This document shows, piece after piece, positions 8,163 to 41,605 of a stretch of DNA of 64,000 nt. The notes below the pieces were generated by a model. That model was given only the letters and a program-made list of their open reading frames with translations. It made no database searches and was not told where the DNA came from. The translations under genes and the position numbers were made by a program. Source of the stretch: Paludibacteraceae bacterium (GTDB lineage Bacteria > Bacteroidota > Bacteroidia > Bacteroidales > Paludibacteraceae); NCBI GenBank assembly GCA_024692565.1, contig JAILMN010000010.1:124001-188000 (forward strand), given 5' to 3'. Every line of letters begins with the position of its first letter. The first letter of the stretch is position 1.

Positions 8163-9505
8163 AAACATTCCATATAGGCGGAGTTCATCCGCGTGATAAC
8201 AAACAATTCTCTGCTCATCAGCCTATTGTAGAGTGCCCGCTGCCGAAGCAGGCTATTATTCCGTTGGTGCAACATATCGGTGCGCCGACGCAGGCTGTGG
8301 TAGAAGTAGGAGCGAAAGTGAAAGTGGGCGAATTGCTGGCGAAGGCCGGTGGTTTCGTTAGTGCGAATATCTGTTCGCCGGTTAGCGGTACGGTGACCAA
8401 GATCGGTGATTGGACAGACGCTTGGGGTGCTCCGGGGCAAGCTATTTTCATTGATGTAGAAGGTGATGATTGGTTGCCTGAAATCAACCGCACGCCGGAC
8501 TTGGAGCGTCAGTGTACGCTGGAGCCGAAAGCGATTATCGACAAGATCGCTGCGGCCGGTATCGTAGGTCTGGGCGGTGCTTGTTTCCCGACGCATGTGA
8601 AGTTGTTGCCTCCTCCGGGTAAGAAAGCGGACGTGCTGATTGTCAACGGAGTAGAGTGCGAGCCGTACTTGACGTGTGACCATCAGTTGATGTTGGAGCA
8701 CGGCGAGGAGATCATCATAGGTATCAAGATATTGATGAAGGCGTTGGGTGTTCAGCGTGCGATTATCGGTATCGAGAACAATAAGAAAGATGCAATCGAG
8801 CACATGCAAACGCTGGCGCAGAGTCAGTTGGGCATCGAAGTGCTGCCGCTGAGGCTGAAATATCCGCAGGGCGGTGAGAAGCAACTGATTGATGCTTGTA
8901 TCGGTCGTCAGGTGCCGAGCGGTGCGCTGCCGATCGAGGTGGGTGCTGTGGTGGACAATGTAGCTACGGTGTATGCAATCTATGAGGCGGTGCAGAAAAA
9001 TAAACCGCTTGTGAGTCGTGTGATGACGGTGACGGGTAAGCACGTTTCGAAACCGGGTAATTACTTGGTTCGTTTCGGTACGCCGATCGATGAGGTGATT
9101 GAGTTCGCAGGCGGTGTGCCGGTAGGTACAGGTAAGGTGATCGGCGGCGGTCCGATGATGGGCCGTGCGATGGATCATACGGAGAACATGCCGGCTAACA
9201 AACGTCTGAGCGGTCTGCTGTTCCTGGATGAGAAAGAGAGTATCCGTCCGGAGGAGGAGAACTGCATCCGTTGCGGTAAGTGCGTGCAGGCTTGTCCGAT
9301 GGGCTTGGAGCCGTACCTGCTGAGCCGCATGGCGGAGTTGGAGATGTGGGACGAGTTGGAGAAACACGACATCATGGATTGTATCGATTGCGGATGCTGC
9401 GTGTTCACTTGTCCGGCGCATCGTCGTCTGCTCGACGGTATCCGTCCGGGTAAAGCGAAAGTGGGAGGTATTTTGCGTGAGCGTGCCGCTGCCGAGAAAA
9501 AATAA
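8159..9505 (+). CDS. rnfC: Rnf complex subunit RnfC
   Basis: GGACFPTHVKLLPP, ENCIRCGKCVQACPMGLEP and DCIDCGCCVFTCPAHR 4Fe-4S motifs. Confidence 0.95.
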   Translation: MKTFHIGGVHPRDNKQFSAHQPIVECPLPKQAIIPLVQHIGAPTQAVVEVGAKVKVGELLAKAGGFVSANICSPVSGTVTKIGDWTDAWGAPGQAIFIDVEGDDWLPEINRTPDLERQCTLEPKAIIDKIAAAGIVGLGGACFPTHVKLLPPPGKKADVLIVNGVECEPYLTCDHQLMLEHGEEIIIGIKILMKALGVQRAIIGIENNKKDAIEHMQTLAQSQLGIEVLPLRLKYPQGGEKQLIDACIGRQVPSGALPIEVGAVVDNVATVYAIYEAVQKNKPLVSRVMTVTGKHVSKPGNYLVRFGTPIDEVIEFAGGVPVGTGKVIGGGPMMGRAMDHTENMPANKRLSGLLFLDEKESIRPEEENCIRCGKCVQACPMGLEPYLLSRMAELEMWDELEKHDIMDCIDCGCCVFTCPAHRRLLDGIRPGKAKVGGILRERAAAEKK

Positions 9506-9540: not shown

Positions 9541-10527
9541 ATGAAAAATTTTATAGTTTCTCCGGCGCCGCATGCGCATAGTGGTGACAGCGTTCGTCGG
9601 AATATGCTCTTGGTGATTCTGGCGCTGCTGCCGGCTTATGCGGTTTCGGTGTTGGAGTTCGGTTGGGGCGCTTTGATCACAGCGGCTATCAGTGTAGCGG
9701 CTTGTGTGCTGACGGAATGGCTGGTCAGTCGATTCCTGCTCAAAGAGCAACGTCTGTCTATCGGCGATTTGTCGGCTGTGCTGACGGGTCTGCTGCTGGC
9801 ATTTAACTTACCGTCTAACATCGATTGGTGGATCGTTCTGATTGGCGCGGTGGTAGCGATCGGTGTAGGGAAGATGACGTTCGGCGGTCTGGGTCAGAAC
9901 CCCTTCAACCCGGCGTTGGTGGGACGTGTGTTCCTGTTGGTTTCTTTCCCTGCGCAAATGACCACTTGGCCGCTGGCGAAAGGGTTTGAGACGAGCTACG
10001 TGGATGCACAGACAGGGGCTACGCCGTTGTATTATCTGAAGCACATGATGAAGACGGGTGACCTGAGTGTGATGGATCAACTGCCGGCACTGAAAGATGC
10101 GTTCTTGGGTGCGATGGGCGGTAGTCTCGGTGAGGTATGCGCCTTGGCGCTGATCATCGGTGGTCTGTTCCTCATCTGCACGCGTGTCATCACATGGCAT
10201 ATACCGGTAAGTATCATCGCTACGGTTGCGTTGTTCGCATGGATCGCTACGCCGGCAGGTATGGAGCCGGGTACGTTCATCGCTTATCAGCTGTTGAGCG
10301 GCGGTCTGATGCTCGGTGCGTTCTTTATGGCGACCGATTATGTGACGAGTCCGATGACGGCATGGGGTAAGATTCTCTTCGGTATCGGCATCGGTTTCAT
10401 CATGATGGTGATCCGTACCTGGGGTTCGTATCCGGAAGGTATGTCGTTCGCAATCCTGATCATGAATGCGTGCGTGCCGTTGTTGAATAAATTCCGTCCG
10501 CAGCGTTTCGGCGAGAAGAGAAAATAA
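9541..10527 (+). CDS. rnfD: Rnf complex subunit RnfD
   Basis: NPFNPALVGRVF, multiple TM, GATPLYYL flavinylation-type motif. Confidence 0.95.
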   Translation: MKNFIVSPAPHAHSGDSVRRNMLLVILALLPAYAVSVLEFGWGALITAAISVAACVLTEWLVSRFLLKEQRLSIGDLSAVLTGLLLAFNLPSNIDWWIVLIGAVVAIGVGKMTFGGLGQNPFNPALVGRVFLLVSFPAQMTTWPLAKGFETSYVDAQTGATPLYYLKHMMKTGDLSVMDQLPALKDAFLGAMGGSLGEVCALALIIGGLFLICTRVITWHIPVSIIATVALFAWIATPAGMEPGTFIAYQLLSGGLMLGAFFMATDYVTSPMTAWGKILFGIGIGFIMMVIRTWGSYPEGMSFAILIMNACVPLLNKFRPQRFGEKRK

Positions 10528-10538
10528 GGAGGTTAGCT

Positions 10539-11111
10539 ATGGAAAAGTTACAAAGTTCGTTTAAGAATATGGTGCTGAGCCTGGTTATCATTTCGGTGGT
10601 AGCAGCAGGTGCGCTGGCAGGCGTGTATATCTTGACGCTGGAAGCCATCAATGCGCAGAAATTGGCGAAGCAGGAAGCGGCTAAACAGGCTGTTTTGGCG
10701 GGTCATGAAGATGGCGTAGCGATAGAGACGGCGGTGGACGGTTTCGGTGGTCAATTCCGCGTGATGGTGGGTTTTGATGCCGAAGGCAATATCTTGGGTT
10801 ACGAGATTCTGGAGCACCAGGAGACGCCGGGTCTGGGTTCGCATATGGAACATTGGTTCAAGAATGCCGAAAAGCCGAATCAGAATATCATCGGTCGCAA
10901 AGCCGGTCAGTTGACAGTCAGCAAAGACGGCGGCGATGTGGATGCTATCACGGCTGCTACGATATCGAGTCGTGCGTTCCTCAAGGCCGTCAATCAGGCT
11001 TATGCGGAGCATTTTGGAGTAGAGGCGCATACGGGTGCCAGCCAACTGCATAAAGAGGCGAAAACCGAAGAGGTGGTAATTATCGAAGAAACGGAGGTAA
11101 GCAATGAGTAA
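10539..11111 (+). CDS. rnfG: Rnf complex subunit RnfG
   Basis: FMN-binding domain ETPGLGSHM..., VDAITAATISSRAF; operon position. Confidence 0.93.
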   Translation: MEKLQSSFKNMVLSLVIISVVAAGALAGVYILTLEAINAQKLAKQEAAKQAVLAGHEDGVAIETAVDGFGGQFRVMVGFDAEGNILGYEILEHQETPGLGSHMEHWFKNAEKPNQNIIGRKAGQLTVSKDGGDVDAITAATISSRAFLKAVNQAYAEHFGVEAHTGASQLHKEAKTEEVVIIEETEVSNE

Positions 11112-11724: not shown

Positions 11725-12318
11725 ATGGTCTATTTCTTGATTTTTATCTCTGCGATATTCGTCAATAATATCGTTTTGAGCCAGTTTTTGGGCATTTGTC
11801 CGTTTCTGGGAGTAAGTAAGAAGATCGATACCGCGATGGGTATGAGTGCGGCGGTTGTGTTCGTGCTCACGCTTGCGACGGTGGTCACATATCTGTTGCA
11901 GATGTTGCTGGTTGCGTGGGGCTTGGAGTTCCTGCAGACCATCCTTTTCATCCTTATCATCGCGGCGCTGGTGCAGATGATTGAGATCATTCTGAAAAAG
12001 ATCAGCCCGTCGCTGTATCAGGCGCTGGGTGTGTTCCTGCCGCTGATTACGACCAACTGCTGTATCCTCGGTGTAGCGATTTTGGTTGCTAACGGCACGG
12101 AGAAGTTGCCGATGGGCGCTGAGCACGGGATGCTGACCGGTACGCTGTTTGCGTTCGCTACGGCGCTTGGCTTCGGTTTGGCACTGATCCTTTTCGCAGG
12201 TCTGCGCGAGCAGTTGGCGATGAATAAGGTGCCGAAAGCGATGCAAGGCACGCCGATTGCTCTCCTCACCGCCGGCCTCCTCGCCATGGCCTTCATGGGC
12301 TTCAGCGGAGTGGTATAA
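11725..12318 (+). CDS. rnfA: Rnf complex subunit RnfA
   Basis: NNIVLSQFLGICPFLGVSKK; LPLITTNCCILGVAI. Confidence 0.95.
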   Translation: MVYFLIFISAIFVNNIVLSQFLGICPFLGVSKKIDTAMGMSAAVVFVLTLATVVTYLLQMLLVAWGLEFLQTILFILIIAALVQMIEIILKKISPSLYQALGVFLPLITTNCCILGVAILVANGTEKLPMGAEHGMLTGTLFAFATALGFGLALILFAGLREQLAMNKVPKAMQGTPIALLTAGLLAMAFMGFSGVV

Positions 12319-12342
12319 AAAACAGGGCACACGCCCTGTTTT
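12319..12342. terminator. Bidirectional intrinsic terminator
   Basis: AAAACAGGGC-ACAC-GCCCTGTTTT perfect 10-bp stem between convergent genes. Confidence 0.85.
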
Positions 12343-12416
12343 CTTTTGCTCAGTCTAACAAAAATTTTTTTTATGTTTTCTCCTTCGGAGAGCTATTACC
12401 GCTATTGGCGGTATTT

Positions 12417-12995
12417 TTATTGTTTTTTTCTATATAATAAATATTTAAGGAACGCACGTGCGAGTGCATATGCGCACGCGAGAGCCATCATCGGCCACAA
12501 CACATCGCCTAGCGGAGTAGCCCACGGATCGTCAGGATTTTCCGGTCCCGGGTCGCCACCACCACTATTGCCGCCGCCAATCTTACGCGGACCGCCTGCT
12601 GCAGATACAGATCCTCCTGCAGAACCGCCTCCGCCTGCTGCCACAGAGCTGTAGCGGCTACCGCTGGACATCAATCCGCCGGCTGAAGCACCGCCGCTGA
12701 AGCCGCCTCCGGACATTCCGCTTCCGCTTTTCAGACGCGAAGTGCTGGTGAACATCGGCGAAGCACTGCTGCCGCTGCTACTACTCATCGTTGTCTTACG
12801 TGTACTCTTCACCGCTACCGGTGTTATCGAACGTCCGGAACGGGACTGCAAACCGCCTGAGCTCACTTGTCCCGGTGCGCTGACGACGATATCTTCCGCC
12901 ATCTGCGTGCCGGGTTGTGAGGCAAAGCTCTGAGCGTTTCCGCTCAAGAAGCTTGCCATCGCCAGCGCTATCAATAAATATCTCAATGTTTTCAT
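12417..12995 (-). CDS. Small Gly/Ser-rich secreted protein with C-terminal PLGD-TM-basic tail
   Basis: Signal peptide MKTLRYLLIALAMASFLSGNAQ; tail DPWATPLGDVLWPMMALACAYALARAFLKYLLYRKKQ. Confidence 0.8.
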   Translation of the reverse strand: MKTLRYLLIALAMASFLSGNAQSFASQPGTQMAEDIVVSAPGQVSSGGLQSRSGRSITPVAVKSTRKTTMSSSSGSSASPMFTSTSRLKSGSGMSGGGFSGGASAGGLMSSGSRYSSVAAGGGGSAGGSVSAAGGPRKIGGGNSGGGDPGPENPDDPWATPLGDVLWPMMALACAYALARAFLKYLLYRKKQ

Positions 12996-12997
12996 GA

Positions 12998-15900
12998 TTA
13001 CCTCACTTTCCGTCCTGTTGCGTCATAAATCACTCCATTCCGCAGAATATAGAGTTGGTTACGATAGATGAATTTCATCGGCTGCTCGCTATTCAGGTTG
13101 ATGTCTTGCAAATCGGTAGGCGTCTCTTCTTCATCTTTCAGCACCACACGAATTGTGAATCGCGTCTCGTTATAAAGCGCCTCGTCGCTCTCAAACTCAT
13201 AATTGCCTTTCAGCAAGTCAAAGTCAGTCACACTCTCCACATGATCCGTCAGCAGCACCTCTTTGACGCAAGTCAATTTCGATGCACTCGTGTTGAGATA
13301 GAATGTGTAGGTTCCGCTTGCCGGAGCACGATAACCCATTGTCACTGCCCCTGCGGCACGGCTCTCCGTCATCTCCTCAAACGCCAGACGAGTTTCGCCG
13401 TTCAGCAACCATACTTTCGGCTTATCGGTTGACGAACCGAAGGTCTTCTCCGAATCGTCAAAATCGATCTCGTCGGTGTATGCATCGCTCACGAACAATC
13501 CCGTACGGTCTTCGTTGACGCCTTCCGTTATCTCCACCTGCACATATCCCGAACGCGGATCAGCGGTTCGCAACATGGCCGGTGCCTTCTTTACTCGGCT
13601 GGTGTTCGCAAACTCCAACGTACCGCTTCCGCCACCTGCCGTCTCTTGGAAGAAGAACGGGAAGAATGGCTTCAGTTCGGTCTCCGATGCTACATATTGG
13701 TCATAATCCGAACCACTTACAGCAGACATGACGGTGATATACTTAGTCGCTCCGTCTGCCCATTTATAGGTGCCGTCCCAATGCGCTGCATCCGGATTCT
13801 TCTGCAACTGCTGATGACCGATGTCGCTTTTCCATGTGGACATAAACGGATTACCCACAAAGTTCCAACCTACGTTGTTTGCGGTCACCGTGCGCGGATT
13901 TGCATTGTAGCCGGAAATACCGTGAGCCGTCGTGCTAACCGACTTCGTTGCCTCGCCGCTACCGTTGAAAGCACTATTGCCCAACGGGAAACGAATGATA
14001 GACAACGGGCGGTTACGAACTCTCGCATCATCCGAAACACCTTGTCTCGGACGAGCGGCGATAATGTATCCTATACCGGCATTGAAGTTCGAACCTTCAT
14101 ACCAAGCCCAACTCGTCGCACTCGCATCAGCAGCGCGTAATGCACCATTATAATACTTAACCCATACGGGGAAGTCGTCAACGCCCGCTTCGTCGGTTAC
14201 CTTATTCAATGCAATGGTATAAGGCAAGCAGAACTGATAGTACTTATAGTTCTGGATGTAGTAGTCATAGATAATCTTACCACTACCATTGAAATTGATA
14301 TTTCCGTTCACATACACTTCCGGAGTGTTATATTCAGAGGTGTTCAGCCAACTATGACCGCCGCGAACATATACTTGTTGTTTAGCGCCGAGGCTATATC
14401 CATCCAATATCAACTTACCGCCCGGATATACATAAATGTTCGCAAAGTCCGTATGATCTGCTTTTGCTTGGTCGGCTGTCAGCTTTCCGTTCTTCAAAAT
14501 GACGATGTCGCAACTTGCGCAAACTTCATCTGTTAATGCTGTGCGGTAACCGGAACTTACAGAAGAGCCGCTTACCAATATCGGCTTGCGAATCAGGCAT
14601 CCCTTCGATGCGTCTGATGCGTCTTCTATCTGCATCACCTCGCAGTCGTTGCTGCTCAGCGACAGACCTTCCACTTTCCAAAGGTCACTACCCGTACCGA
14701 TAGCCGTTAACGTCTTCGCGGCAGATGTTACGCCGCCCAAAGTTACTTTGACACTCGAAGGAGCAGTTACGTCACTCGGGAAACGCAGCACCATACTCGT
14801 CGTGCCCCATTCCATCACTTCTGCTTTCAAATCCGTCAGCACGGTCTGGATAGGCAACAGGAAGATATCTTGGTTGGCTCCCGAAGCGTACATACCCCAT
14901 TTGCCAGAAGAAGTACTATAGCCAAGCACTAAATTGCTGGTGTGAGTTGTATTACTATTTGTTACAGTATAATGTACCAGATCTGTAGATACCAACTTCC
15001 ATTCATAGAATAGATTATTTACTGAATTTGCAGCATTAGTTGCAGTAGCTCCAGTGTTAATTTGTGTCTTTGTCGCATCAGAAGTTGATTGATTCAATAC
15101 TTTACTTGTTTGGCTACTGAGGAAATGAATTGCCTCTCCGTTGTTTGCATAACGCGAGTTCGTGGTAGGTAATCCTAAGAGACTATACTCGCTGGTGTTC
15201 AGCGCAACCGAAGCCTTTGTCGGCGTCATAGTGTTATCCACGCGGATTGGTATAGCATCTTGCGTGCTCATTCCTGAGATTCGAGCCGTCAACGCTACCC
15301 ATTCGCTTCCCGCTTTCGCTGCAATAACGAACTGATCCGGCAAACAGCGACCGGTCACCAAATTATTGAATGTTCTGTTCTGACCGTGGCATGTTACTCT
15401 GATCGTTGGATGCACAAAACTCTCATCCACGTAGGCAGAAGGTGCATAGGCTACCACTATTTTCGTCGTTGCCAGATCGCCGCTAGCATTGGTTTGCAGC
15501 ACACTACCGGTAATTTGCGTTCCGTCTGTCTTATAGAAAAGCAAATCTGTTCCGGAAAGTGTAACATCTTGCGTAGCATCGGCCGCAGCGCCGTCCACTG
15601 TCAGATCCAGCGTACGTATGGCTTTCACTTTCTGCCCGGCTGCTGATGTGATATACAGCGGTGTGGATGTACCATCCGTTTGTGTAAGCGTTATATCTAT
15701 CTCCGGTTCACAGAACGCACGTAAGTCACCATAGAGATATGCACTAACGGTCACATTGTAATTTGGCATCGTGAATGAGTTCGAAGTTACAGTTACCTTC
15801 GTACTCTCTTCGCCTGTCTTATACACATTCCAGCCTGCCCATGCGTATGGCGCCATTGCATCTCCGTGTGTCAGCGTCACTACCGTTCCAGGTGTAACCA

Positions 15901-17770
15901 ATGTGCTACCACCTTCTGCAACAGACGGAGTGGTTGCACTGATATCCACATTAGCTACACTCGCTACCGCCAACGTACGTTGCTGCGTCCATTTCGCGTA
16001 GAATGTCACATCTGCCGCGGTGGATATAAGAGCCATGTTGGCATAGTTAGTGCCACTTACGCCATCCGCATTTGTGTTCCAACCGTTAAATACATAACCA
16101 TCTCTGGTAAACGTGTTATTGCGTGTAGTTGTAGCAACGTTGCGTCTAATTATTTGATCCGCCATCGAACCGCTTCCACCATTCGCATTATATTGTACTT
16201 TTTGCAGTATGATTTCAGTGGAACTAGAACTATATTGATATGAACCGCTGGCATAACCATTTTTTCCATATGCGCGAACGAAATACGAGGTGTTCGTGGC
16301 AAAGGATCCTGTTAGATTCCCATCAAATGCAGCATCTGTTCCGGATGTTTTGACTTGCACCTTATTATTGCTTGTAGTAGGATCTGTAGAGGTGTTCCAT
16401 ACAAATCCGGCATCTGTCCATTCGCAGTTTGCCCCTACAACAAGGCCGGAAACGGTCACAGGTATACTGCTTAGTGTGAACGTTGCACCATCTTTTGCCG
16501 AGGCATTTGCCATTGTGGGGTTAGTGCTGCACTCAACTGGAGCGCATAATGTTCGATAACTGCTGGCACTATACGTGGCTGGCGTATAAAGGACAATAGA
16601 CAGATCTTTGATGAAAACACGATTCTCCGCAGTTCCTGTGAATGTGAGAGTGGTTGATGAAGAGCCGCCGGTGAGTGTAGTTGATACTTCTTGCCAGACA
16701 GTGTACGTCTCGTAAGGAGCCGTAAATTGGGTTTTCCCTAGAGTACCTGAGCTAGCAGAAAGTGTAACTTTTCCAGACTCATCATCGTCCCATGCCTTAA
16801 TCTTAAAGGTAATCGTAGCCGCAGCACTTGTTAATGATGATAAGGCAGACGTTGTTGCGACGCCTGCAGAACTACTGGATGATAAACGGAGACTTCCTTG
16901 TCCTCCATAACAATACAAATTGAGAGACGACCAACCGCTACGTGATGAAACGACTCCCGTTCCAGAGATATTTAAATCATCAGAGAATACATTAGTTTCC
17001 GAAGCAGGGGTGAGTTGCTCGGCAAATACAGCATAATATACAGCATCTCCTGTCAACGTTACCTCTCCGTTAAATAAGTCTGCAGGAGCTGTTGATGGTG
17101 TTGCTCCTATTTCTGTAGCAGTCCAACCGACAAATTTCAAGCTGCTACAATCTCCACCTAACGCCCCATTAGAAACTGCAGGAGGAGTGCTTGCAGCAAC
17201 GCCTGTTTCCGATTTTGTAGTAGACTCACCGACATGCCATTCTACGTCATATGTTGGGGCTAAAGAGATGCTAATAGTACCCAATCCCACGTTTCCGGAA
17301 CTTTTTAATGTGTATATAAATTTTATATACCTGGTTGAGGGTTTTAAGGTATGCTCTTTTGCTGTAGCAGACCCGGCAAGAGTTGTATGAACTGCAACGT
17401 CTGTATAGGTACCATCATCTGCAGACTCTTGTACCTTAAATGTTCCGCCGCTGAAACTATTACCCATAATTTTATATGACAATGTTCCTGGGGCATTAGC
17501 CAGTTGAATCGTCATATAATCCCCGGTACCATCGAACTTAAGTTTCACACCCGAAGTTCCATAATCGGTACCAAGGCCACTTTTTGTGCAACCTAACTCA
17601 GGGGTATAAGCCGAATATCCATCGTCCGCTCCCCAAGCATGAGGAAGTGACAATGGTGTAAATGCTCCCCACGCGTGCGCGCACGTTCCTAACAGCATTA
17701 AGAACAAGCAAATATATTTCGAATAGTTTTTCATAACTTTGTTATTTTGCAAATTAAAAACTCTTTTCAT
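12998..17770 (-). CDS. Large secreted protein with InlB/Listeria-Bacteroides repeat and T9SS-like C-terminus
   Basis: Signal peptide ending AHAWGA (start may be 17737, MKNYSKY); repeat VQYNANGGSGSMADQIIRRN...FNGWNTNADG...FYAKW; C-term MKFIYRNQLYILRNGVIYDATGRKVR. Confidence 0.88.
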   Translation of the reverse strand: MKRVFNLQNNKVMKNYSKYICLFLMLLGTCAHAWGAFTPLSLPHAWGADDGYSAYTPELGCTKSGLGTDYGTSGVKLKFDGTGDYMTIQLANAPGTLSYKIMGNSFSGGTFKVQESADDGTYTDVAVHTTLAGSATAKEHTLKPSTRYIKFIYTLKSSGNVGLGTISISLAPTYDVEWHVGESTTKSETGVAASTPPAVSNGALGGDCSSLKFVGWTATEIGATPSTAPADLFNGEVTLTGDAVYYAVFAEQLTPASETNVFSDDLNISGTGVVSSRSGWSSLNLYCYGGQGSLRLSSSSSAGVATTSALSSLTSAAATITFKIKAWDDDESGKVTLSASSGTLGKTQFTAPYETYTVWQEVSTTLTGGSSSTTLTFTGTAENRVFIKDLSIVLYTPATYSASSYRTLCAPVECSTNPTMANASAKDGATFTLSSIPVTVSGLVVGANCEWTDAGFVWNTSTDPTTSNNKVQVKTSGTDAAFDGNLTGSFATNTSYFVRAYGKNGYASGSYQYSSSSTEIILQKVQYNANGGSGSMADQIIRRNVATTTRNNTFTRDGYVFNGWNTNADGVSGTNYANMALISTAADVTFYAKWTQQRTLAVASVANVDISATTPSVAEGGSTLVTPGTVVTLTHGDAMAPYAWAGWNVYKTGEESTKVTVTSNSFTMPNYNVTVSAYLYGDLRAFCEPEIDITLTQTDGTSTPLYITSAAGQKVKAIRTLDLTVDGAAADATQDVTLSGTDLLFYKTDGTQITGSVLQTNASGDLATTKIVVAYAPSAYVDESFVHPTIRVTCHGQNRTFNNLVTGRCLPDQFVIAAKAGSEWVALTARISGMSTQDAIPIRVDNTMTPTKASVALNTSEYSLLGLPTTNSRYANNGEAIHFLSSQTSKVLNQSTSDATKTQINTGATATNAANSVNNLFYEWKLVSTDLVHYTVTNSNTTHTSNLVLGYSTSSGKWGMYASGANQDIFLLPIQTVLTDLKAEVMEWGTTSMVLRFPSDVTAPSSVKVTLGGVTSAAKTLTAIGTGSDLWKVEGLSLSSNDCEVMQIEDASDASKGCLIRKPILVSGSSVSSGYRTALTDEVCASCDIVILKNGKLTADQAKADHTDFANIYVYPGGKLILDGYSLGAKQQVYVRGGHSWLNTSEYNTPEVYVNGNINFNGSGKIIYDYYIQNYKYYQFCLPYTIALNKVTDEAGVDDFPVWVKYYNGALRAADASATSWAWYEGSNFNAGIGYIIAARPRQGVSDDARVRNRPLSIIRFPLGNSAFNGSGEATKSVSTTAHGISGYNANPRTVTANNVGWNFVGNPFMSTWKSDIGHQQLQKNPDAAHWDGTYKWADGATKYITVMSAVSGSDYDQYVASETELKPFFPFFFQETAGGGSGTLEFANTSRVKKAPAMLRTADPRSGYVQVEITEGVNEDRTGLFVSDAYTDEIDFDDSEKTFGSSTDKPKVWLLNGETRLAFEEMTESRAAGAVTMGYRAPASGTYTFYLNTSASKLTCVKEVLLTDHVESVTDFDLLKGNYEFESDEALYNETRFTIRVVLKDEEETPTDLQDINLNSEQPMKFIYRNQLYILRNGVIYDATGRKVR

Positions 17771-17788: not shown

Positions 17789-20700
17789 TTAAAGTTCCTT
17801 CGCCCAGATGGCCCAATAGGTCTTGTCTGAAGCAGGATGATTAGTTGTTCCTCCTGTGAGTATCGTCGGTGAACCAATTAACGTACCATCCGAATCTACA
17901 TCATCTGCTGCCACCCATCCAACGAATTTGTAGTGCAATTGCTCGCAAGTCTCATCGCTCGGAGCGGATTTATCACTTAAGTTTGGTACCGTATATTTGG
18001 CACTCTCTGCGTGGTTGTCACTCTCCGTGTAGCCGGTTGTCTCATGCAACTTATCAATGAAATGATCTACCATCGCCGTAAATGTCGCATTGGCGGTGTA
18101 TGTGCCGGTAGTCGTGTTCTGAGTGAACGTCACCGTTATCGCTTGCGCCGATTTGCTGTCATCACCGCTTGTTGCTACAGCAGGGCTGACCGAAGCAGGT
18201 GTCACACCGGTTGTGCTCCAGCCTGTTAACTTATAACCCGCGTTCGGCGTAATAGTCATCGTTGTCTGTCTGTCTGCCGCAGTCGCACTACACGTAGCAA
18301 TCGGTCCCGCAGGACTAAATGTCACCGTTCCGTTCGACGGACTATTATGAGCCAACGTCACATTTTTGTCACAGCAGTTGGTAAGATATTGCGTATAAGA
18401 GCCCGCTTTGGTCTTCACTTTAATAGAAATGTCGTCTAAACGCACGTTTTTACTACCACTCGGACCAGTAAAGGTTAAGTTAAACGTACTTCCGGAACCA
18501 CATGTAATATCCGTAGAGGTCGTTCCTGCTGTACTGGTTCCTTTTCCTCCACTATATCCTGTTCCACTTACTGATGAAGTAAGACTATTTCCATTTTGTT
18601 TATAAGTCAGAGTGAGCTCGGAAGCTCCGCAACGAGGTATACCTGTAATAGTAAATGTGCCAGATGTATTAGCAACCAACAATTCAGGCGATGTGCCTCC
18701 GGCGGTATTTTCTGTATATATTTTAGTAGTACCTCCTCCATTGGTACATGCATAGGTCACGCTACCGGAATACAATGTAGTTCCGGTATGACTATTAGTA
18801 ACACTACCGCTCGGTACTGCGTCTTTGCTATAGCCACTAAAATCTTCTGCGTAAATAACTGTATTTACGGCAGGTCCTTCTTCAAACTCAGCTTTGGCAA
18901 ATACTGCGTAGTAGATTGTACCATTTGCAGAGACTGTAGGTAAAGAACCATCAGTAGTATAAATCGTTTTACCGGCAACACTATTAATCTTACCGGTCCA
19001 CTCCGCTGTTGCCCAGCCGTAGAAATCGGTACTCGTATCATCGCAACTACTCGGTGTACTCGGCGGTGTAGGTCTCTGGCCACTAGTTACGAGCGTTGTT
19101 GCGATTGTGCTACCATTATTCTTCCACGTCACTTCCCACTTACCTGTTCCGCTTAGTGTAACCGTTTTGCTTGTTGCTCCGGTGCTACTTATGGTTATAG
19201 TTGCCCCGTTATATGCTGAACTTGGGGTCCACGTTACGGTTATTGTAGTTGTCGCTACAGAACCTGCGCTTGGCGTTAATGTAGTCTTATCTACGGAGAA
19301 AAGAGTAGGATTAGCACCACTGATGGCCAACCCGATGTTTGCTGTTAAATATGACCCACTAACTGTAAATGTCTCTTGGTAGGAGCCTCCCACCTTCTTG
19401 TCTCCGAAGGCAATCGATGTTTTGCTCACGGTAATAACTGGTACGTGTACCCACTGCGCTGTCAACGTGATATTGCCCTGAATATCTTGTATAGTTGCTG
19501 TATTGGCGATCAACGTACCGGCTGTTACGGTCGCACCACCAATCTTCACATCCACATTAGCAGTCCAACCGGAGAAGGTATGATCGGTTTTAGTATACCC
19601 ATTGGAAGCTAATGTTACATTATTTCCGGGGCAAATACCCGATACGTTAGTCATTGAACCGCCGCTGTTTCCGTTACCGGCATAAGTAATTGTATAAGTA
19701 TTGAAATCTTTCCATCCCGAAAAATCATAGTATTTCGCGCCGTTGCTAGTCGATGAAAGGTCTGGAGTCTTATGACTTCCGTCACCACTGGCTGCATCTT
19801 TAACCAAGAAATTCGGATAATCCGCCAGTATCGGGAAATAGATGTAATCATTTCCACATACAGAATAAGTCTTCGTTATACGGATGGCAGAATTATAATC
19901 CTGAACAGGTGTTCCTCCTCCATCCCACCAGTGGACGTAGTAACTATCATTCCAATCTGCCCATTTCTTGAAATAGACATAGGCATCATCCGGGTGGCTC
20001 GGTGTTGGATAGATTACTTGAACCGCCTTGGTGGATGTGTTGATTTTAAAGGTATAAGTACCCGCCCTTCCGGTAAAGATCTTACAGTTGGCACCGGAAC
20101 CACCGGTAAAAGTCCAACCGCTTATATCTTCAACGATATTACCTCCGTTATAGTACCATGTGTTGTTTTGCTTATCGTAGAACTGGAATTCGTACTTGAT
20201 GTTTTTCGCCAGAGAAACAGTCGCTGTAGCTATTCCATCTGCCACGGTACACGAATTATCTTCGCTCCATGAGTTAAAGGAGCCTTTCAGATACCAAATA
20301 GGAGTGAATGTAACAGTAATCGTCGAGTTTCCATTCCATCCTGTCGGATAGGTGACCGTCCTGGTGTTTCCACTACCTCCGTAAGAGATAGAACCCGAAG
20401 GTGCTGTTGCCGGATTGGTGGCACTTACCGCGCTCACATAATATCCGGTGTTTGGAGTACAATTCACCGTAACCGTTCCTGCCGAACTGGTCGTCGTAGC
20501 AGGACTGCCGCTCAAAGTAAACGTCCCATTACTTGATGCCGCTCCGGAAGCTGTTACGGAAGTACCGGCAGAATATGAAGTCCAACTAAACTCATCAACG
20601 CAGATTCGCCCTCCACCATTATTAACATTGATGGTAACCGTTGCACTTGCAAGAGACTGATTTACAGTAATAGTTCCGGTTGTTGCAGATGAAGTGTAAC

Positions 20701-21094
20701 TTAATGTCCCGGAAGAATAGGTATTTTTACCGATGGTAATGGAGAGTTCACGACTCTTTCCACTATCCGAATATGGATACTTATACTTAAATGTTAGGAC
20801 TCCGAAACCCGCACTTTGTTGTGCTGAAGTCAACTTCATTGTAATTGTACTCGCCGTGCTTGCCTTGAAGGTCAATCCTCGTGAGCCTGCGGTCTTTTGG
20901 TCTGTACGAGCATTAGTAGCTGCCCAACCGGTTTGACCGTTAGTTCCTGTCCAAGAACGACTACCGTAACTAGTCGCACTACTTAAGTTTTCAAAACTTT
21001 CGGTGCCAGCTCCCCATATTTGTCCAATGCAGAGCGTTGTTAATAAGATGATGGTTACCAGCCATCGAGTTTTGGTAAAAAGTTGTTTTTGCAT
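17789..21094 (-). CDS. Large secreted repeat protein (1101 aa), no recognisable T9SS C-terminal domain
   Basis: Signal peptide ...CIGQIWGAG; repeats YTITYAGNGNSGGSMTNVSG...FSGWTANVD...LTAQW; ends YWAIWAKEL. Confidence 0.82.
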   Translation of the reverse strand: MQKQLFTKTRWLVTIILLTTLCIGQIWGAGTESFENLSSATSYGSRSWTGTNGQTGWAATNARTDQKTAGSRGLTFKASTASTITMKLTSAQQSAGFGVLTFKYKYPYSDSGKSRELSITIGKNTYSSGTLSYTSSATTGTITVNQSLASATVTINVNNGGGRICVDEFSWTSYSAGTSVTASGAASSNGTFTLSGSPATTTSSAGTVTVNCTPNTGYYVSAVSATNPATAPSGSISYGGSGNTRTVTYPTGWNGNSTITVTFTPIWYLKGSFNSWSEDNSCTVADGIATATVSLAKNIKYEFQFYDKQNNTWYYNGGNIVEDISGWTFTGGSGANCKIFTGRAGTYTFKINTSTKAVQVIYPTPSHPDDAYVYFKKWADWNDSYYVHWWDGGGTPVQDYNSAIRITKTYSVCGNDYIYFPILADYPNFLVKDAASGDGSHKTPDLSSTSNGAKYYDFSGWKDFNTYTITYAGNGNSGGSMTNVSGICPGNNVTLASNGYTKTDHTFSGWTANVDVKIGGATVTAGTLIANTATIQDIQGNITLTAQWVHVPVITVSKTSIAFGDKKVGGSYQETFTVSGSYLTANIGLAISGANPTLFSVDKTTLTPSAGSVATTTITVTWTPSSAYNGATITISSTGATSKTVTLSGTGKWEVTWKNNGSTIATTLVTSGQRPTPPSTPSSCDDTSTDFYGWATAEWTGKINSVAGKTIYTTDGSLPTVSANGTIYYAVFAKAEFEEGPAVNTVIYAEDFSGYSKDAVPSGSVTNSHTGTTLYSGSVTYACTNGGGTTKIYTENTAGGTSPELLVANTSGTFTITGIPRCGASELTLTYKQNGNSLTSSVSGTGYSGGKGTSTAGTTSTDITCGSGSTFNLTFTGPSGSKNVRLDDISIKVKTKAGSYTQYLTNCCDKNVTLAHNSPSNGTVTFSPAGPIATCSATAADRQTTMTITPNAGYKLTGWSTTGVTPASVSPAVATSGDDSKSAQAITVTFTQNTTTGTYTANATFTAMVDHFIDKLHETTGYTESDNHAESAKYTVPNLSDKSAPSDETCEQLHYKFVGWVAADDVDSDGTLIGSPTILTGGTTNHPASDKTYWAIWAKEL
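20523..20571 (-). repeat. Inverted repeat arm A (partner 22041-22089)
   Basis: Reverse complement CTGCCGGTACTTCCGTAACAGCTTCCGGAGCGGCATCAAGTAATGGGAC; 48/49 match to partner. Confidence 0.92.
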
Positions 21095-21241
21095 ATGTTT
21101 TATGTTTTGTATTTTTTCGTTTTACTTGCACTTGCCTTCGAAACGCCTTCGAGATGCGTCCTTAGTGCCTCTAATATGAGGCCTGTTATTATATCAGTTG
21201 TTTCAATTATGTATGAAATACGAATATAAAAACTAAATATT

Positions 21242-22099
21242 ATGACAACAAAATTATTTTCAAAACGAGTATTGTGGTTATTAATTCCACTGCTCACATT
21301 GTTTAACGTTAGTGCGTGGGGAGCATCAGAGACGGCAGCTTACACGCTCTCTTGCTCTACAAGCGGAAGTAACAACTCCTACACAGGCAATTGTGACATA
21401 ACAGTATCTAGCATCACATGGAATGTGGCCGGTAACTCACAGCAAAATCCATGGCGCTTTGGTGGAAAATCATTCTCCAAGACAGACCGATGCCTGTATT
21501 CTAAAACTGCCATAGCTGATGATATAACAAAGATTGCTGTTGCCTTCGGCGCAAATAGTGGCTCAATTACTGTAAATAGTGTAAAACTTGAGGTTTATTC
21601 TACTGCAGCTCTCGCCGCAGCGAAAGGAACTGGAGATGTCAGTAGCACAACCATCTCATACGCAGCAAGCACGACTCGAAATATAACTGTACCTGACGGA
21701 AAAAGTTGGAAGGGAAGGTATTATTGTCTTAAAATGAATCTTACCGTTTCGGGTAGTTCTAATAAGTATATCACTGTCAGTAGCATTACATTCTATACAC
21801 CTACTTATAGCGTCACTTATAATGGAAACGGAAATACAGGAGGTTCCGTTCCAACAGATGCAACAGCTTATAAGAAAGGCACAACAGTAACTGTTAAGTC
21901 CAATAGTGGTTCTCTTGCAAAGACCGGTTACACCTTTAGCGGCTGGAATACCAATACTTCTGGTACAGGGACAAACTACACCGCTGGTTCTGGAACTTTC
22001 AGTATCACAAGTGACATTACTTTGTATGCGAAATGGGTTGCTGCCGGTACTTCCGTAACAGCTTCTGGAGCGGCATCAAGTAATGGGACTCTTTCTTGA
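21242..22099 (+). pseudogene. 5' fragment/cassette of a secreted InlB-repeat protein (285 aa)
   Basis: Complete signal peptide ...NVSAWGA and one repeat (YSVTYNGNGNTGGSVP...FSGWNTNTSG...LYAKW); stops abruptly at the inverted repeat shared with the neighbouring gene. Confidence 0.75.
22041..22089 (+). repeat. Inverted repeat arm B (partner 20523-20571)
   Basis: CTGCCGGTACTTCCGTAACAGCTTCTGGAGCGGCATCAAGTAATGGGAC. Confidence 0.92.
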
Positions 22100-22911
22100 A
22101 CCAAGTTTTTGCGACTCTTCTTCTTTGATAATCAATTACTTACGTTCTCCTCAAGTATGCTCTTAAAGCCCTTTTTGTTTTTTCTTTCTTCCTGATTATC
22201 AAGTATTTACAAACTCACCTTTTCACTTTTTCTCCCAAACTCGTGTTTTTTGCCACTAAATTTGCTGTTTTTGCTGCCTTACATTTTGGTTTTTTAACAC
22301 ATGCAAGCAATCAAGCAAAATTTTATTTTTTGCCTTTATTTAGTTATTATATCAGTATTTCAAAGATCAATCTCACTTTTGTTTAAAGTACTTGTGAGAA
22401 GTACTATGCTTCATCTATCAGACGTATCGAAATTACTGAAATTATCTTTGGTTCGCTAATCTTTTCCTTTTTTTGATCATAAAATGCATTTTTTCTTTCA
22501 AAAACCTAAACTTTTCACAAAAAAATGGTATATTTATAGTAAAGATAATTGATAGAAAAAAACAATATAAAAATTATGGAGATATTGAGATATAATTATA
22601 TTACATTTATTATTTCCATTGGTTTACACTGCGTTAAACCTTTTTTGATCAACTGGTTTCCAAAACAGGCGGACTTAATCTCAAAGATGTATAAGGTAAT
22701 AAGTATTATAGAAATCCTTCACTTATTCGGGATCCTATAACTACCAGCTAAACCGACCACTATGGAAATGGATCAGCATTGCCCGGGGAACATTTGATTT
22801 CCCGGGAGTTCAGCATTTCTCTACGTCAAAGATCATTTGATGCTGTTTTATAGTGTTGCATCTTGCACTATTCCTTATTTATCTACTACGCGCGTACGCG
22901 CTCAAATTGGA

Positions 22912-24067: not shown

Positions 24068-25729
24068 TTATTTATTCGCTGTTAAAAATTCATATATCTG
24101 CTCTTTGTGCCTTGCGGCCTCTTTAAATCCTCCGATATGGAACATTACTTTACCGTTTTTAGATGTCAAGTAATGTTCCGAAACATGGCTATAATCGAAC
24201 CCCTCCCAGACATTGCTTTGAGCATCATCTTGTAGTAACCTTTCAAAAAAGTGATTCATGAAGGCTCGTTCCTTATGGTTGTAAAAGTATTCAGCTATTG
24301 CATATTCTTTTTGTGAATCTAACTGTTCAATAACTAAAAAATCTATAACAGCTACCCTATAATTGTTATGATAAAGTGTCAAACTTTCTAATAGATTGTT
24401 CACGTAATAATCGTTAAAAGAGTAGCCTACTATCAACAAACTGTCATTCTCAATTAATTGCACATCCATTTGTGTACGGTAAAATGAGAATGGTTGTGAA
24501 ACGATTTTGTCTGTTTTGTGAAGACCTGTAATAATACTATCTTGCACTAAAAGGTCTCCACTTTGTCCTCTGCCTGCACTTAAACTTCGACAAGTGATGT
24601 TATCAAGATTTGTTTGAAAGTCTTTCCACTTAAATTGGTTATGTGAATATACTTCCTGAATCTCTCTATCTACTTTAAAATTAGGCTTTTCACCACTATA
24701 TAATAAACATCCATGCACATGATTTATTGTATGTTTCTCGGAATTTTTTTTGTCATCTATATACTTCTGAGGTTCAAAGTGCTGATAATCGCCAGATAGG
24801 CTATAATATCCATCAATGTATTCTTGCAAAGAGGTTTCAATAGTAGTATCATAATTGAACGTAAATATATCCCAAATAATATTCTGAGGGCCTTTCCAAA
24901 AATTGGTGTACCAACTTAATGCATTATTTTTTTCTTGCTCAAAGTAAGTATTGTATACATTGATTAGACTCATTAGTTCCATATACATACTTTTCAACAC
25001 CTCATTGGGGCTCTTTTGCTTATCAGTTAACTTAAAAACTTTCGTCGGATTTATAAATGGCGATAATGGATGTTGAACTATATATTCTCCACTACCTTTT
25101 TGCTTCCAATCTGGATAAAAAGAGGCCAATTGTTCGACAACGTGAAAATACGCCTCAAAGTTATCCTTATATTTATTAGGAAATGTCTTCTTTATTTTTT
25201 GCAGCAAATTTGTTTTACCATCATCTGTATTTTTCAATAATTGCTCTGTTAAATAATGGCTTGACGGCTGCTGTCCTTCTGGTCCTAATCCGATAGCAGC
25301 GCCAGCTCCAACTATGGCAACGACACGCCTTTTCTTTTCTTCAATATGTTGGTCTGTTGTTGTGTCGTCACTATATCTCACCTCGTATGTATTCTCCTTA
25401 GAGTTGTAAGTGACTATAAACAATGGGCATTGTCTTAAAATAGCAAGCACAAATCTCCTATGCTTATATTGGCGTGACACACGGTCCGAATATGTAGTAT
25501 ATTTTCCCGTGTTATTAAGTATATCATGTACAACATGAAAACTTCGAGTTAAATCAACATATTCTCCCTCATTTGAAGATATATATCTATAAATATATAT
25601 TCTCTTTTCAGAGACTTCTGTTAACTTAAACTTTAGACGATCAATTATCCCACTATGAATCTCCACACCTCTCAACTTATATAAGGCGTCGATAAGTTCA
25701 CTCCATGTATGTGTTGCTCTTATTCCCAT
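24068..25729 (-). CDS. SIR2-like domain protein
   Basis: RRVVAIVGAGAAIGLGPEG, WDIFTFNYDTTIET, INHVHGCLLYSG, SLLIVGYSFNDYYVNNLL: SIR2 NAD-binding/catalytic motifs. Confidence 0.82.
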   Translation of the reverse strand: MGIRATHTWSELIDALYKLRGVEIHSGIIDRLKFKLTEVSEKRIYIYRYISSNEGEYVDLTRSFHVVHDILNNTGKYTTYSDRVSRQYKHRRFVLAILRQCPLFIVTYNSKENTYEVRYSDDTTTDQHIEEKKRRVVAIVGAGAAIGLGPEGQQPSSHYLTEQLLKNTDDGKTNLLQKIKKTFPNKYKDNFEAYFHVVEQLASFYPDWKQKGSGEYIVQHPLSPFINPTKVFKLTDKQKSPNEVLKSMYMELMSLINVYNTYFEQEKNNALSWYTNFWKGPQNIIWDIFTFNYDTTIETSLQEYIDGYYSLSGDYQHFEPQKYIDDKKNSEKHTINHVHGCLLYSGEKPNFKVDREIQEVYSHNQFKWKDFQTNLDNITCRSLSAGRGQSGDLLVQDSIITGLHKTDKIVSQPFSFYRTQMDVQLIENDSLLIVGYSFNDYYVNNLLESLTLYHNNYRVAVIDFLVIEQLDSQKEYAIAEYFYNHKERAFMNHFFERLLQDDAQSNVWEGFDYSHVSEHYLTSKNGKVMFHIGGFKEAARHKEQIYEFLTANK

Positions 25730-27215: not shown

Positions 27216-28511
27216 TTGCAGTATATTGCTATGGCAACCGATTATTTAAGCATCTTAAGCGACCAGTTAGAGGAGCTACGCAAAACCCCGTGGGAATCTA
27301 TCATCACTCGCAAAGAGGAACAAGAGGTAAATCTCAACAGCCCACTTGCGCAAGTAGTGATTGGTGTGCGTCGTAGCGGTAAGTCCACGCTATGCGCCAA
27401 GTTGATGATGGAAAGTAAACTTCCATTTGGTTACATCAACTTTGACGATGATCGCTTCGGCAAACTCACCCGTGACGATTTCGACCCGTTGTTGCAAACC
27501 TTATATCGACTCAATGGCGATTTTAAACACTTGCTTCTTGACGAGGTGCAGAATATCGAAGGCTGGGAGTTGTTCGTTAACCGAATGCTCCGACAAGGAA
27601 TGCGCGTCATCATTACCGGAAGCAATGCCAACCTGCTTAGTGGCGATTTGGCAACTCATCTGACCGGGCGTCATCATAAGATTGAACTCTATCCTTTCTC
27701 CTTCCACGAATATTGTCAGGCTCACAATGTGGATATCACGTCATATTCCACCAAAGCAATAGCTCTGCGCGAACGTGCTCTCGACGAATACCTCTTTCAA
27801 GGCGGATTTCCGGAACTGCTCAACCTCAACGAGGCTGAACAAACCGACTATGTGCGCTCGTTGGTGCGAACTATCGTTGAGAAGGACATTGCAAAACGCT
27901 ACAAAATCCGCTATGTGGAGACTCTGAAAAATATTGCTGACCAAGTGCTGGATGAGTTCACCAATGAGCAATCATCCTTTTCCATCCAAGAGAAGCATCG
28001 TCTCAGTTCGGCTCACACTGCAAAGAATTACTTGCAATATATCCAGAATGCTTATCTCGTATATGGCGTACCACGTTTCTCCCTAAAAAGCATTGAGCGC
28101 CGCAGTGTAAACAAGTATTATGCAATGGATAATGCCATGGTTGCCAAGCGCGAAGGAGCGTTGCTAACTGAAAGCCTTGGACCACGATTGGAAAACATCG
28201 TAGCTATTGAACTCAAGCGTCGCTCTTCTATTGACGACCAAATCTACTATCTTCGCAAAGTGCGCGAATATGAAGTGGATTTTGTTCGCGTGCATAATCA
28301 CCATGTGCAGGAACTTATCCAAGTTACCTATGATTTCCGAGATCCAAGCACCAAGTTGTACAATCGCGAAGTAGGCAACCTCTTTAAGGCCGGCCAATTA
28401 CTACACTGCAATAACCTTACACTTGTGATGGCTTACGGCGAGAAGCGCGATATTGTCCAAGACGGTAAAACTGTCCATTGTGTTCTTGCCTCCGATTGGC
28501 TTTTGCCGTAA
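27216..28511 (+). CDS. AAA ATPase with DUF4143-type C-terminus
   Basis: Walker A VIGVRRSGKSTLCAKL, Walker B HLLLDEVQNIEGW, ELKRR...YYLRKVREYEVDFV; start may be 27231. Confidence 0.85.
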   Translation: MQYIAMATDYLSILSDQLEELRKTPWESIITRKEEQEVNLNSPLAQVVIGVRRSGKSTLCAKLMMESKLPFGYINFDDDRFGKLTRDDFDPLLQTLYRLNGDFKHLLLDEVQNIEGWELFVNRMLRQGMRVIITGSNANLLSGDLATHLTGRHHKIELYPFSFHEYCQAHNVDITSYSTKAIALRERALDEYLFQGGFPELLNLNEAEQTDYVRSLVRTIVEKDIAKRYKIRYVETLKNIADQVLDEFTNEQSSFSIQEKHRLSSAHTAKNYLQYIQNAYLVYGVPRFSLKSIERRSVNKYYAMDNAMVAKREGALLTESLGPRLENIVAIELKRRSSIDDQIYYLRKVREYEVDFVRVHNHHVQELIQVTYDFRDPSTKLYNREVGNLFKAGQLLHCNNLTLVMAYGEKRDIVQDGKTVHCVLASDWLLP

Positions 28512-29067: not shown

Positions 29068-29316
29068 ATGGAAGCAACATTGACGTTCAACCCTCGCAAT
29101 CGCATAGCGATGTCAACGATGGAATACATTCAATCCTTGGGTGTATTTACTATTACTACACATCGTCCGGAGGAAACACGCAGAAGGACAAAGGCTAAAC
29201 AAGGTGTTGACCAGCAGCTCTGGAGTGACCTCAAAGGAGCTTTACGCGAAGTGAAGACTCATCATGAAGGTAAGCAACAAATGCAAGATGCGTATGAACT
29301 CCTCAATGAACTTTGA
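29068..29316 (+). CDS. Putative antitoxin of a type II TA pair
   Basis: MEATLTFNPRNRIAMSTMEYIQSLGVF..., small, overlaps the downstream RelE-like gene; internal ATG after promoter-like TACCTTTG. Confidence 0.6.
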   Translation: MEATLTFNPRNRIAMSTMEYIQSLGVFTITTHRPEETRRRTKAKQGVDQQLWSDLKGALREVKTHHEGKQQMQDAYELLNEL

Positions 29317-29647
29317 TATTCGCGTATCAACGTATTTCGCTCACGAGGCGAAACGGCTGGCTAAACATTATCCGTCTTTCAAGAGCGACTACAATGATTT
29401 CTTGAAATCGCTCAAAGAAAACCCTTATCAAGGTGACGATTTAGGAAATGGAGTTCGGAAAGTGCGTATGGCGATTGCGTCTAAAGGGAAAGGCAAATCC
29501 GGTGGCGCTCGCGTTATTACGCTGAATATCCTGATCGACGCGGAAAATATGGAAATCAATCTTCTGTTGTTATACGACAAACAGCAGGCAGACAACTTCA
29601 ATCCGGAGGCGTTAAAGGATGCTTTGAAAGAATTAGGATTGATTTAA
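29306..29647 (+). CDS. RelE/HigB-like toxin
   Basis: FAHEAKRLAKHYPSFKSDYNDFLKSLKENPYQGDDLGNGVRKVRMAI, GGARVITLNI, LLYDKQ. Confidence 0.72.
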   Translation: MNFDIRVSTYFAHEAKRLAKHYPSFKSDYNDFLKSLKENPYQGDDLGNGVRKVRMAIASKGKGKSGGARVITLNILIDAENMEINLLLLYDKQQADNFNPEALKDALKELGLI

Positions 29648-30495: not shown

Positions 30496-31386
30496 ATGGA
30501 CACTAATGACATCATCATACCAAAGAGTCCGAATGAACCGGATGAAGTCCTGCTAGCCGATGTGCAAACGGTGGCTGAAGCTCTTGGGGTATCTTGGTTG
30601 ACGCAGAAGCAATATATCAGTTTTGAACCTGGAAGGCACTATAGTCCGAACACCTTGACACATCGATTTAAAACATCGTGGAATGGAGTGATGAAGTTGG
30701 CTGGGCTTGATATTAATACCAAAAGGAACAAAAAAAATCTCTATTGTCCGTCAAAAGATGCACTGATTGAAGATGTAAAAGCCGTTGCTGCACAACTTGG
30801 AAAAGATACAATAACGAGTGCCGAATATGAACAGAAAGGCAAATATGGACGCTCATGTGCTTATAACTTGATCGGCAACTGGCAGGAAGTTTTGAATGCG
30901 GCGGGTTTGAAAGAAACAGGGTATCATACCGCCGGGGTTACTGACGAACAATTATTGGAAGCAATATATCAAGCATGGGAAAGATTGGGACGGCAACCAA
31001 ATACGGGAGATTTGAAGAACAGAGAGATGGGGTATGGGCAAACGACTTACATTAATCGATTTGGCTCTTGGCGGAACAGTATGATCGCCTTCAAAGAATA
31101 TGTGCAGCAACGACAAGGAGATATTAAAGTTGTGAGCCCAAGCCCAGTCGCACACAAAACAAGTAGATCGGCGAGCAAGAAGTTACGAGCTCAAGTTTTT
31201 GATAGAGATCAAGCAACATGCCAGATATGTGGTGCAAATGAAAGAACAAAACCGGGAGTGAAACTCGTACAGGATCACATCGTTCCCTATAGCAAAGGAG
31301 GCGAAACGACATATGATAATCTGCAAGTATTATGCAGAAGTTGTAATATTAAGAAAAACAACAAGTTGATAAATAAAACAAAATAG
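30496..31386 (+). CDS. HNH endonuclease with three homing-endonuclease-associated-like repeats
   Basis: Three about 50-aa repeats (...SWNGVMKLAGL, ...NWQEVLNAAGL, ...SWRNSMIAF) then CQICG...VQDHIVPYSKGGETTYDNLQVLCRSCN. Confidence 0.85.
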   Translation: MDTNDIIIPKSPNEPDEVLLADVQTVAEALGVSWLTQKQYISFEPGRHYSPNTLTHRFKTSWNGVMKLAGLDINTKRNKKNLYCPSKDALIEDVKAVAAQLGKDTITSAEYEQKGKYGRSCAYNLIGNWQEVLNAAGLKETGYHTAGVTDEQLLEAIYQAWERLGRQPNTGDLKNREMGYGQTTYINRFGSWRNSMIAFKEYVQQRQGDIKVVSPSPVAHKTSRSASKKLRAQVFDRDQATCQICGANERTKPGVKLVQDHIVPYSKGGETTYDNLQVLCRSCNIKKNNKLINKTK

Positions 31387-40591: not shown

Positions 40592-40743
40592 CCTGCGGCG
40601 TTTATGCTTCGCGTGTATATGCGCACACGTGCGTTCCTTAAATATTTATTATATAGAAAAAAACAATAAAAATACCTTCCGAGAGCGGTAATAGCTCTCC
40701 GAAGGAGAAAACATAAAAAAATTTTTGTTAGACAGAGCAAAAG

Positions 40744-40767
40744 AAAACAGGGCGTGTGCCCTGTTTT
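40744..40767. terminator. Bidirectional intrinsic terminator (same 10-bp stem as 12319-12342)
   Basis: AAAACAGGGC-GTGT-GCCCTGTTTT. Confidence 0.85.
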
Positions 40768-40770
40768 TTG

Positions 40771-41408: not shown

Positions 41409-41490
41409 TTTACCTTTGACGCTGCAAAGGTACAACTTTTTTTTGAATTACGCAAATTTTAATTGAATATTGTATGATTTTTTATACTTC

Positions 41491-41605
41491 GCGTGCGCAT
41501 ATGCACTCGCACGTGCGTTCCTTAAATATTTATTATATAGAAAAAAACAATAAAAATATTCCAATAGCGGTAATAGCTCTCCGAAGGAGAAAATACAAAA
41601 AAATC
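41491..41605 (+). pseudogene. Orphan 3' fragment of a PLGD-tail small-protein gene plus downstream repeat
   Basis: 63 nt identical to the coding 3' end of 12417-12995 (ACAYALARAFLKYLLYRKKQ*), followed by shared AGCGGTAATAGCTCTCCGAAGGAGAAAA. Confidence 0.8.

Follow-up and report, generated by a model that had tools for sequence, protein, structure and literature searches.

Is a short open reading frame (ORF) that carries its own signal peptide, diverges from a large secreted-protein gene and ends just past a sequence shared with it the remnant of a truncated gene, or is it an alternative front end of its neighbour, brought into use by DNA inversion? The question is raised by a locus in a 64-kb stretch (the window; G000:C8:124001-188000) of a Paludibacteraceae metagenome assembly of 1.54 Mb that is 77% complete. 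The large gene (gene 1) and the short ORF (the cassette) very likely constitute a two-state coding inverton, in which, judging from sequence, a recombinase of the Mpi type inverts 1561 bp and joins one constant protein body to either of two front ends.

In the proposed mechanism, an Mpi-family serine recombinase, encoded elsewhere in the genome, would bind two ~34-bp palindromic sites (consensus TGGNTCAANNAAATGGNNCGTTTNNTTTGANCCA), one of them inside gene 1 just past its N-terminal domain and the second where the cassette ends, would cut both at a common GA dinucleotide (20524-20525 and 22087-22088), and would turn round the intervening 1561 bp. In either orientation the ~908-residue body would receive one complete front, consisting of promoter region, signal peptide and N-terminal domain of a ligand-binding type, and the unused front end would be left behind as a short truncated ORF. 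With one front or the other on the constant body in either state, the switch would choose between A and B rather than between ON and OFF.

Two divergent genes and their inverted repeat

In its current phase, gene 1 occupies 17789..21094 on the minus strand and encodes a secreted protein of 1101 residues (signal peptide MQKQLFTKTRWLVTIILLTTLCIGQIWG). Residues 1-174 comprise the signal peptide and N-domain A; the recombination site follows, and then the 908-residue body (in which a choice-of-anchor D-like stretch, at residues 542-638 of the protein, scores under the cut-off). The cassette, silent in the current phase, lies at 21242..22099 on the plus strand and encodes 285 residues: a signal peptide (MTTKLFSKRVLWLLIPLLTLFNVSAWG), N-domain B and an InlB/Listeria-Bacteroides (List_Bact) repeat at 21806..22033 on the plus strand (Pfam PF09479, 48 bits for a cut-off of 27). 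Between the two genes lie the 147 bp of a divergent intergenic region (21095..21241) that holds both 5' regulatory regions and falls entirely within the predicted invertible segment. No canonical TAnnTTTG -7 box is found on either strand of this region.

The arms of the inverted repeat are located in gene 1 (20523..20571, minus strand) and at the 3' end of the cassette (22041..22089, plus strand). They match at 48 of 49 nucleotides (nt), which cannot be chance, and are read in one common frame (AGTSVTASGAASSNGT), the sole mismatch falling at the third position of a codon (TCT/TCC). The stop codon of the cassette follows 10 nt beyond the 49-nt repeat, and ungapped extension lengthens the repeat to 57 nt at 93% identity (20515-20571/22041-22097). 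The 1.54-Mb assembly holds no further copy of the 49-nt repeat, and the repeat is not kept as sequence among the 61 whole genomes searched (its own and others of the genus and the order). Another repeat, of 31 nt (I2; 21209-21239/22337-22367), was considered as a switch and rejected as AT-rich intergenic sequence.

Inverting 20523-22089 in silico generates an open fusion ORF of 1193 residues (17789-21370) that starts with the signal peptide of the cassette, and leaves a 193-residue stub bearing the former N-domain, N-domain A. A full-length ORF is thus present in both phases and the sites lie inside the two ORFs, so that the promoter ON/OFF feature of Mpi elements is absent; what is found is the arrangement of a coding inverton, in which inverted repeats, lying in frame, link a constant part with one or another partial gene. 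A first-pass annotation of this DNA had proposed as much: two divergent secreted-protein genes, each with a signal peptide, a 48/49 repeat in the same frame of both, an InlB repeat in a plus-strand ORF that stops within 10 nt of the repeat and looks like a silent cassette, in-frame fusion of that ORF to a body of roughly 900 residues, and movement of both promoters with the inverting DNA. Each of these points holds at the level of sequence, with identical gene and repeat coordinates.

Gene 2 (12998..17770, minus strand), which encodes a secreted protein of 1590 residues with a List_Bact repeat, begins 18 nt downstream of gene 1 and is its probable operon partner; a second secreted-protein ORF also lies closely 3' of the gene 1 counterpart in loci of other species. 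In a profile search, the type IX secretion system (T9SS) sorting domain TIGR04183 is absent from genes 1 and 2 and present in a neighbour at 42835-50418.

The same arrangement in other species

The genus was represented by 178 genomes, one for each species, of which 100 were searched with the cassette, 100 with the body, and all 178 with the C-terminal domain of gene 1 and the recombinase; the surroundings of matches were retrieved and repeats were sought between divergent ORFs. Comparison with relatives, which the first-pass annotation had proposed, turns up this design again in 16 further species of the genus, along with a common site and an Mpi-family invertase. In total, 18 cassette-gene pairs are found in 17 genomes, the window included. 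Each has a short divergent ORF with a signal peptide facing a long secreted-protein gene, and an inverted repeat of 20-57 nt that is in frame in all 18 pairs and located at the 3' end of the cassette. The repeat sequence is specific to each locus, and the N-regions within one locus are mostly without significant similarity (BLAST), as are the front ends in the window outside the repeat. The cassette ORF stops at most 76 nt from the repeat, except at L163 (196 nt) and at L085, where the contig ends. One genome (G090) has two cassettes serving one gene. Repeat matches at L095, L157, L159 and L171 were rejected as non-coding, out of frame or lying between two long genes.

A probable palindromic recombination site

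A Gibbs search of the 18 cassette arms yields a single common motif, with a log-likelihood of 222 as compared with 127-138 in shuffled arms. When cassette and gene are aligned on this motif, their identity falls from 0.91-0.98 in the core to 0.19-0.37 about 30 nt out. (The height of this peak is partly a matter of construction, because the pairs were picked by identity; the coincidence of the peak with a motif common to different species is not.) Around one same centre on both sides the arms have dyad symmetry, 54% complementary on the gene side and 48% on the cassette side for a mean of 25%, and the dyad amounts to the ~34-bp palindrome of the consensus given above. In the window the palindrome is located at 20508..20541 (minus strand; CGGCATCAAGTAATGGGACGTTTACTTTGAGCGG) on the gene side and at 22071..22104 (plus strand; CGGCATCAAGTAATGGGACTCTTTCTTGAACCAA) on the cassette side. 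A leave-one-out matrix, built from 34 arms of other species with the window locus excluded, ranks these two arms 1st and 2nd, respectively, when every position in the 64-kb window is scored, and the consensus core without mismatch occurs once in the 1.54-Mb assembly (pattern search), at the gene arm of the window.

The repeat consensus of Bacteroides fragilis Mpi, ARACGTTCGTN as quoted in PMC8375218, aligns best at the centre of the dyad, with a mean of 6.5 matches in 10 over 36 arms for a background of 2.7 (z 4.9). The central dinucleotide is the same within all 18 pairs (GA/GA in the window) and varies across loci (TC, TT, GC, AC, CT, GT, AA, GG and GA), a pattern that is as expected for a serine recombinase acting with a 2-bp overlap. 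These dinucleotides would place the crossover at GA (coding strand) in 20524..20525 on the minus strand for the gene side and in 22087..22088 on the plus strand for the cassette side, and would bound the invertible segment at 20526..22086 (1561 bp).

The third-best site region of the window, at 43337-43370 on the plus strand, is weaker, and lies at about residue 167 of the large T9SS-sorted secreted protein (gene 42835-50418). No cassette is seen opposite it, and it is possibly a vestigial or orphan site.

The recombinase

The one serine recombinase of the genome (G000:C30:114382-114996, 204 residues) passes the NCBIfam profile NF009949, 'master DNA invertase Mpi family', at 306 bits for a cut-off of 272. 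The first-pass annotation had suspected a recombinase beyond the window, and this gene does lie there, on another contig (C30). Mpi-family genes are present in 109 of the 178 genomes of the genus; all 10 genomes whose cassettes were found independently of the recombinase have one, as compared with 99 of the other 168 (P 0.006 in a Fisher test). Linkage is often close, with an Mpi copy less than 200 bp from the cassette in 5 loci and less than 2.8 kb away for 8 of the 18. Of the five loci with an adjacent copy, two (L137 and L146) were found independently of the recombinase search. L154 (in G030) has two near-identical Mpi-family genes 1.2 kb apart (8328-8930 and 10095-10697) beside a truncated secreted-protein ORF.

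Weighing the explanations

The repeat and its frame, the fusion ORF, the recurrent architecture, the site, the overlap dinucleotides, and the presence and linkage of the recombinase are read directly from the DNA. What we infer is action of the enzyme on these sites and flipping of the segment in this strain. Near-perfect arms with one third-position difference, an intact cassette ORF and an intact recombinase gene together argue for a working switch in the window. Several points weigh on the other side. The contig continues through the locus unbroken. The Mpi gene of this genome, being on another contig, lies a long way from the locus and might act on other sites. The halves of the window site fit the published Mpi consensus in part (6/10 on the gene side), and on the cassette side the right half-site is degenerate. 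In the encoded proteins the motif coincides with a junction that recurs (G-S-x-N-G-S/T), and part of its conservation may be at the level of protein; and the identity profile, taken alone, is partly built into the way in which the pairs were found. Some of these features (no recombinase gene nearby, an imperfect half-site) would suit a frozen relic, that is, an ancestral invertible cassette that no longer switches and whose plus-strand ORF is a decaying, truncated gene. Such a relic is improbable in view of arms that agree at 48 of 49 positions with third codon positions included, a cassette ORF that is intact with its signal peptide, an Mpi-family gene that is complete and lies on another contig, and two sites that top the leave-one-out scan. 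In the case of one relative, G118, the contig itself bears on flipping: C35 stops exactly at the end of the repeat (L085, 10378-10426). Its cassette arm is shared with the gene arm over 49 nt, of which the final ~15 lie past the crossover and belong to gene-body sequence, so that the contig passes from cassette N-region into gene body; most other pairs lose identity soon after the crossover. Assembly of reads from a mixture of the two phases would produce a contig end of this kind, which is suggestive only.

Three further explanations were weighed. A tyrosine recombinase of the Tsr/Xer type might flip the segment in place of the Mpi-type serine recombinase: a palindrome of ~34 bp is comparable in length to loxP-type sites, and enzymes of this class are used by the SusC-locus shufflons of the Bacteroidales (PMC4747536). 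This is highly improbable, since the sole tyrosine recombinase found in the 77%-complete genome looks XerD-like by sequence, in the 16 other genomes no cassette has one nearer than 20 kb, whereas Mpi copies do lie that close, and the sites point to a two-base overlap and align with the Mpi core consensus. RecA-dependent homologous recombination (inversion or gene conversion) of the 49-bp repeat would not be site-specific; the repeat in the window is long enough for rare events, and identity runs 46 nt inward of the crossover. On the other hand, the arms are just 21-30 nt at L137, L133 and L163, and the palindromic motif, the overlap dinucleotide fixed within pairs and the linkage to Mpi would all be unexpected, which makes this extremely improbable. 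Finally, the shared sequence might mark a mere domain boundary between paralogous secreted proteins with the same downstream domain, the plus-strand gene having been truncated by chance. The proteins do come from one large modular family and the site is at a domain junction in every locus, but third codon positions are near-identical, identity drops right after the crossover instead of running on through the domain, and 18 independent truncations would be required, each of them soon after a palindromic site; this explanation is scarcely credible.

The two front ends and what they may do

The mature parts of N-domain A (20570..21010, minus strand) and N-domain B (21320..21802, plus strand) are both predicted by AlphaFold2 to be beta-sandwiches, with predicted local distance difference test (pLDDT) scores of 78 and 95, respectively. 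The nearest Protein Data Bank (PDB) folds of N-domain A include the carbohydrate-binding modules (CBMs) CBM29 (its top match), CBM6 and CBM22; those of N-domain B include CBM86, the BT0996-C CBM and CBM35. Both domains are accordingly predicted to be carbohydrate-binding-like, an expression that, at template modelling (TM) scores of just 0.4-0.6, refers to resemblance of fold and not to function.

Both front ends recur, on other bodies, in other species. N-domain A matches, at 80% identity, the beginning of a gene of 1992 residues in G019 (locus L107), the relative that is matched at the DNA level (86%); homology stops at the inverted repeat, so that this N-domain is common to the two and the body is different. 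No cassette is seen there. N-domain B is fused to long bodies, in expressed configuration, in G107, G035 and G017, and is also present in a silent cassette of G118. A silent N-region of G118 is 62% identical over 277 residues to an expressed one of G019, as far as the site.

The outcome of switching in the window would be a change of surface ligand or antigen, as the predicted folds and the modular protein family suggest; its role may be against phage, against host immunity, or in the choice of glycan. It is also reasonably likely that the loci represent a genus-wide, hitherto undescribed class of Mpi-type invertons that swap whole 5' modules (promoter region, signal peptide and a domain of carbohydrate-binding type) in large secreted proteins, in some cases with several silent cassettes (two in G090) and often with an adjacent recombinase copy, providing each lineage with a combinatorial repertoire of surface ligand binding.

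Relation to known switches

Mpi is described as a promoter invertase (PMC4747536, PMC8375218). The Mpi promoters of capsule loci in B. fragilis and its relatives resemble the window switch in recombinase family (NF009949) and in having a master enzyme that can act on remote sites, and their palindromic core (ARACGTTCGTN; PMC8375218) is partly matched by the window sites; they differ in that the known sites flank promoters and confer ON/OFF control, whereas those in the window lie within genes and would swap a single block made up of promoter region, signal peptide and N-domain, the body being always fused to one such block. The SusC/SusD shufflons of B. fragilis (Tsr0667), found in the same bacterial order, likewise select the version of a surface protein by inversion (PMC4747536), but employ a tyrosine recombinase, and on outer-membrane transporters, where the window switch would involve a serine recombinase and a different family of modular secreted proteins. 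Coding invertons are known, for example, in restriction specificity subunits (PMC11892184), and within-gene inversions are among the work cited in PMC12632263. In type I hsdS invertons, inversion between in-frame repeats within coding sequence brings in another recognition domain, supplied by a partial gene that is itself inactive (PMC11892184), as would happen here; the domains exchanged are the DNA-recognition domains of a methylation system, in contrast with extracellular domains of a ligand-binding type that would come with their own promoter regions.

The switch would combine an Mpi-family enzyme and site type with the design of a coding shufflon. Coding sites of the Mpi type that exchange promoter region and N-domain of secreted proteins were not found in the literature cited here, and an earlier mention is possible. 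Key work is reportedly that of Coyne (2003) on Mpi, Milman (2023) on gene-altering inversions and Chanin (2024) on intragenic inversions. Hin, Gin and Cin are serine invertases with a 2-bp overlap; like these, and like the Rci shufflons, the window switch would join alternative parts to the constant part of a surface or tail protein. Gin, Cin and Rci change the 3' end of a gene and Hin moves a promoter, whereas in the window the 5' end and promoter region would change and the 3' body stay constant.

Such a switch would extend phase variation in the Bacteroidales from ON/OFF control to choice among binding domains. The 17 species, each with its own repeats, provide a natural comparative set with a defined site consensus, making it possible to test how the sites of a master invertase evolve, how coding and site constraints are balanced, and which ligands are bound by very large modular secreted proteins. 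In practical terms, truncated 'genes' and contig breaks at such loci can be states of a switch and not pseudogenes.

Neighbouring features

Beside the switch are genes for a SIR2-domain protein (24068-25729), an AAA_14/DUF4143 ATPase (27231-28508; PADLOC PDC-S01), a RelE-like toxin (29264-29644) and an HNH endonuclease (30496-31383), constituting an accessory or defence-type island; in relatives, variable accessory genes likewise fill the region upstream of the switching gene. Two adjacent small ORFs at 41684-42335 look, by sequence, like an MNT nucleotidyltransferase/HEPN-type pair.

An intergenic element, TCAAAGATC, is present at 22360, 22826, 28574 and 28945 of the window and at many other loci, often followed by a short stem. 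It lies 60-290 nt downstream of several silent sites and was considered as an enhancer, a candidacy that was rejected for want of specificity (77 of 92 distinct occurrences in the fetched loci are intergenic). Long, near-perfect inverted intergenic repeats, identical over as much as 70 nt, pair 12317-12481 with 40626-40769 and 41489-41603, 28 kb away. Two secreted-protein genes of opposite orientation have their 3' ends close to these repeats, which could permit a much larger inversion.

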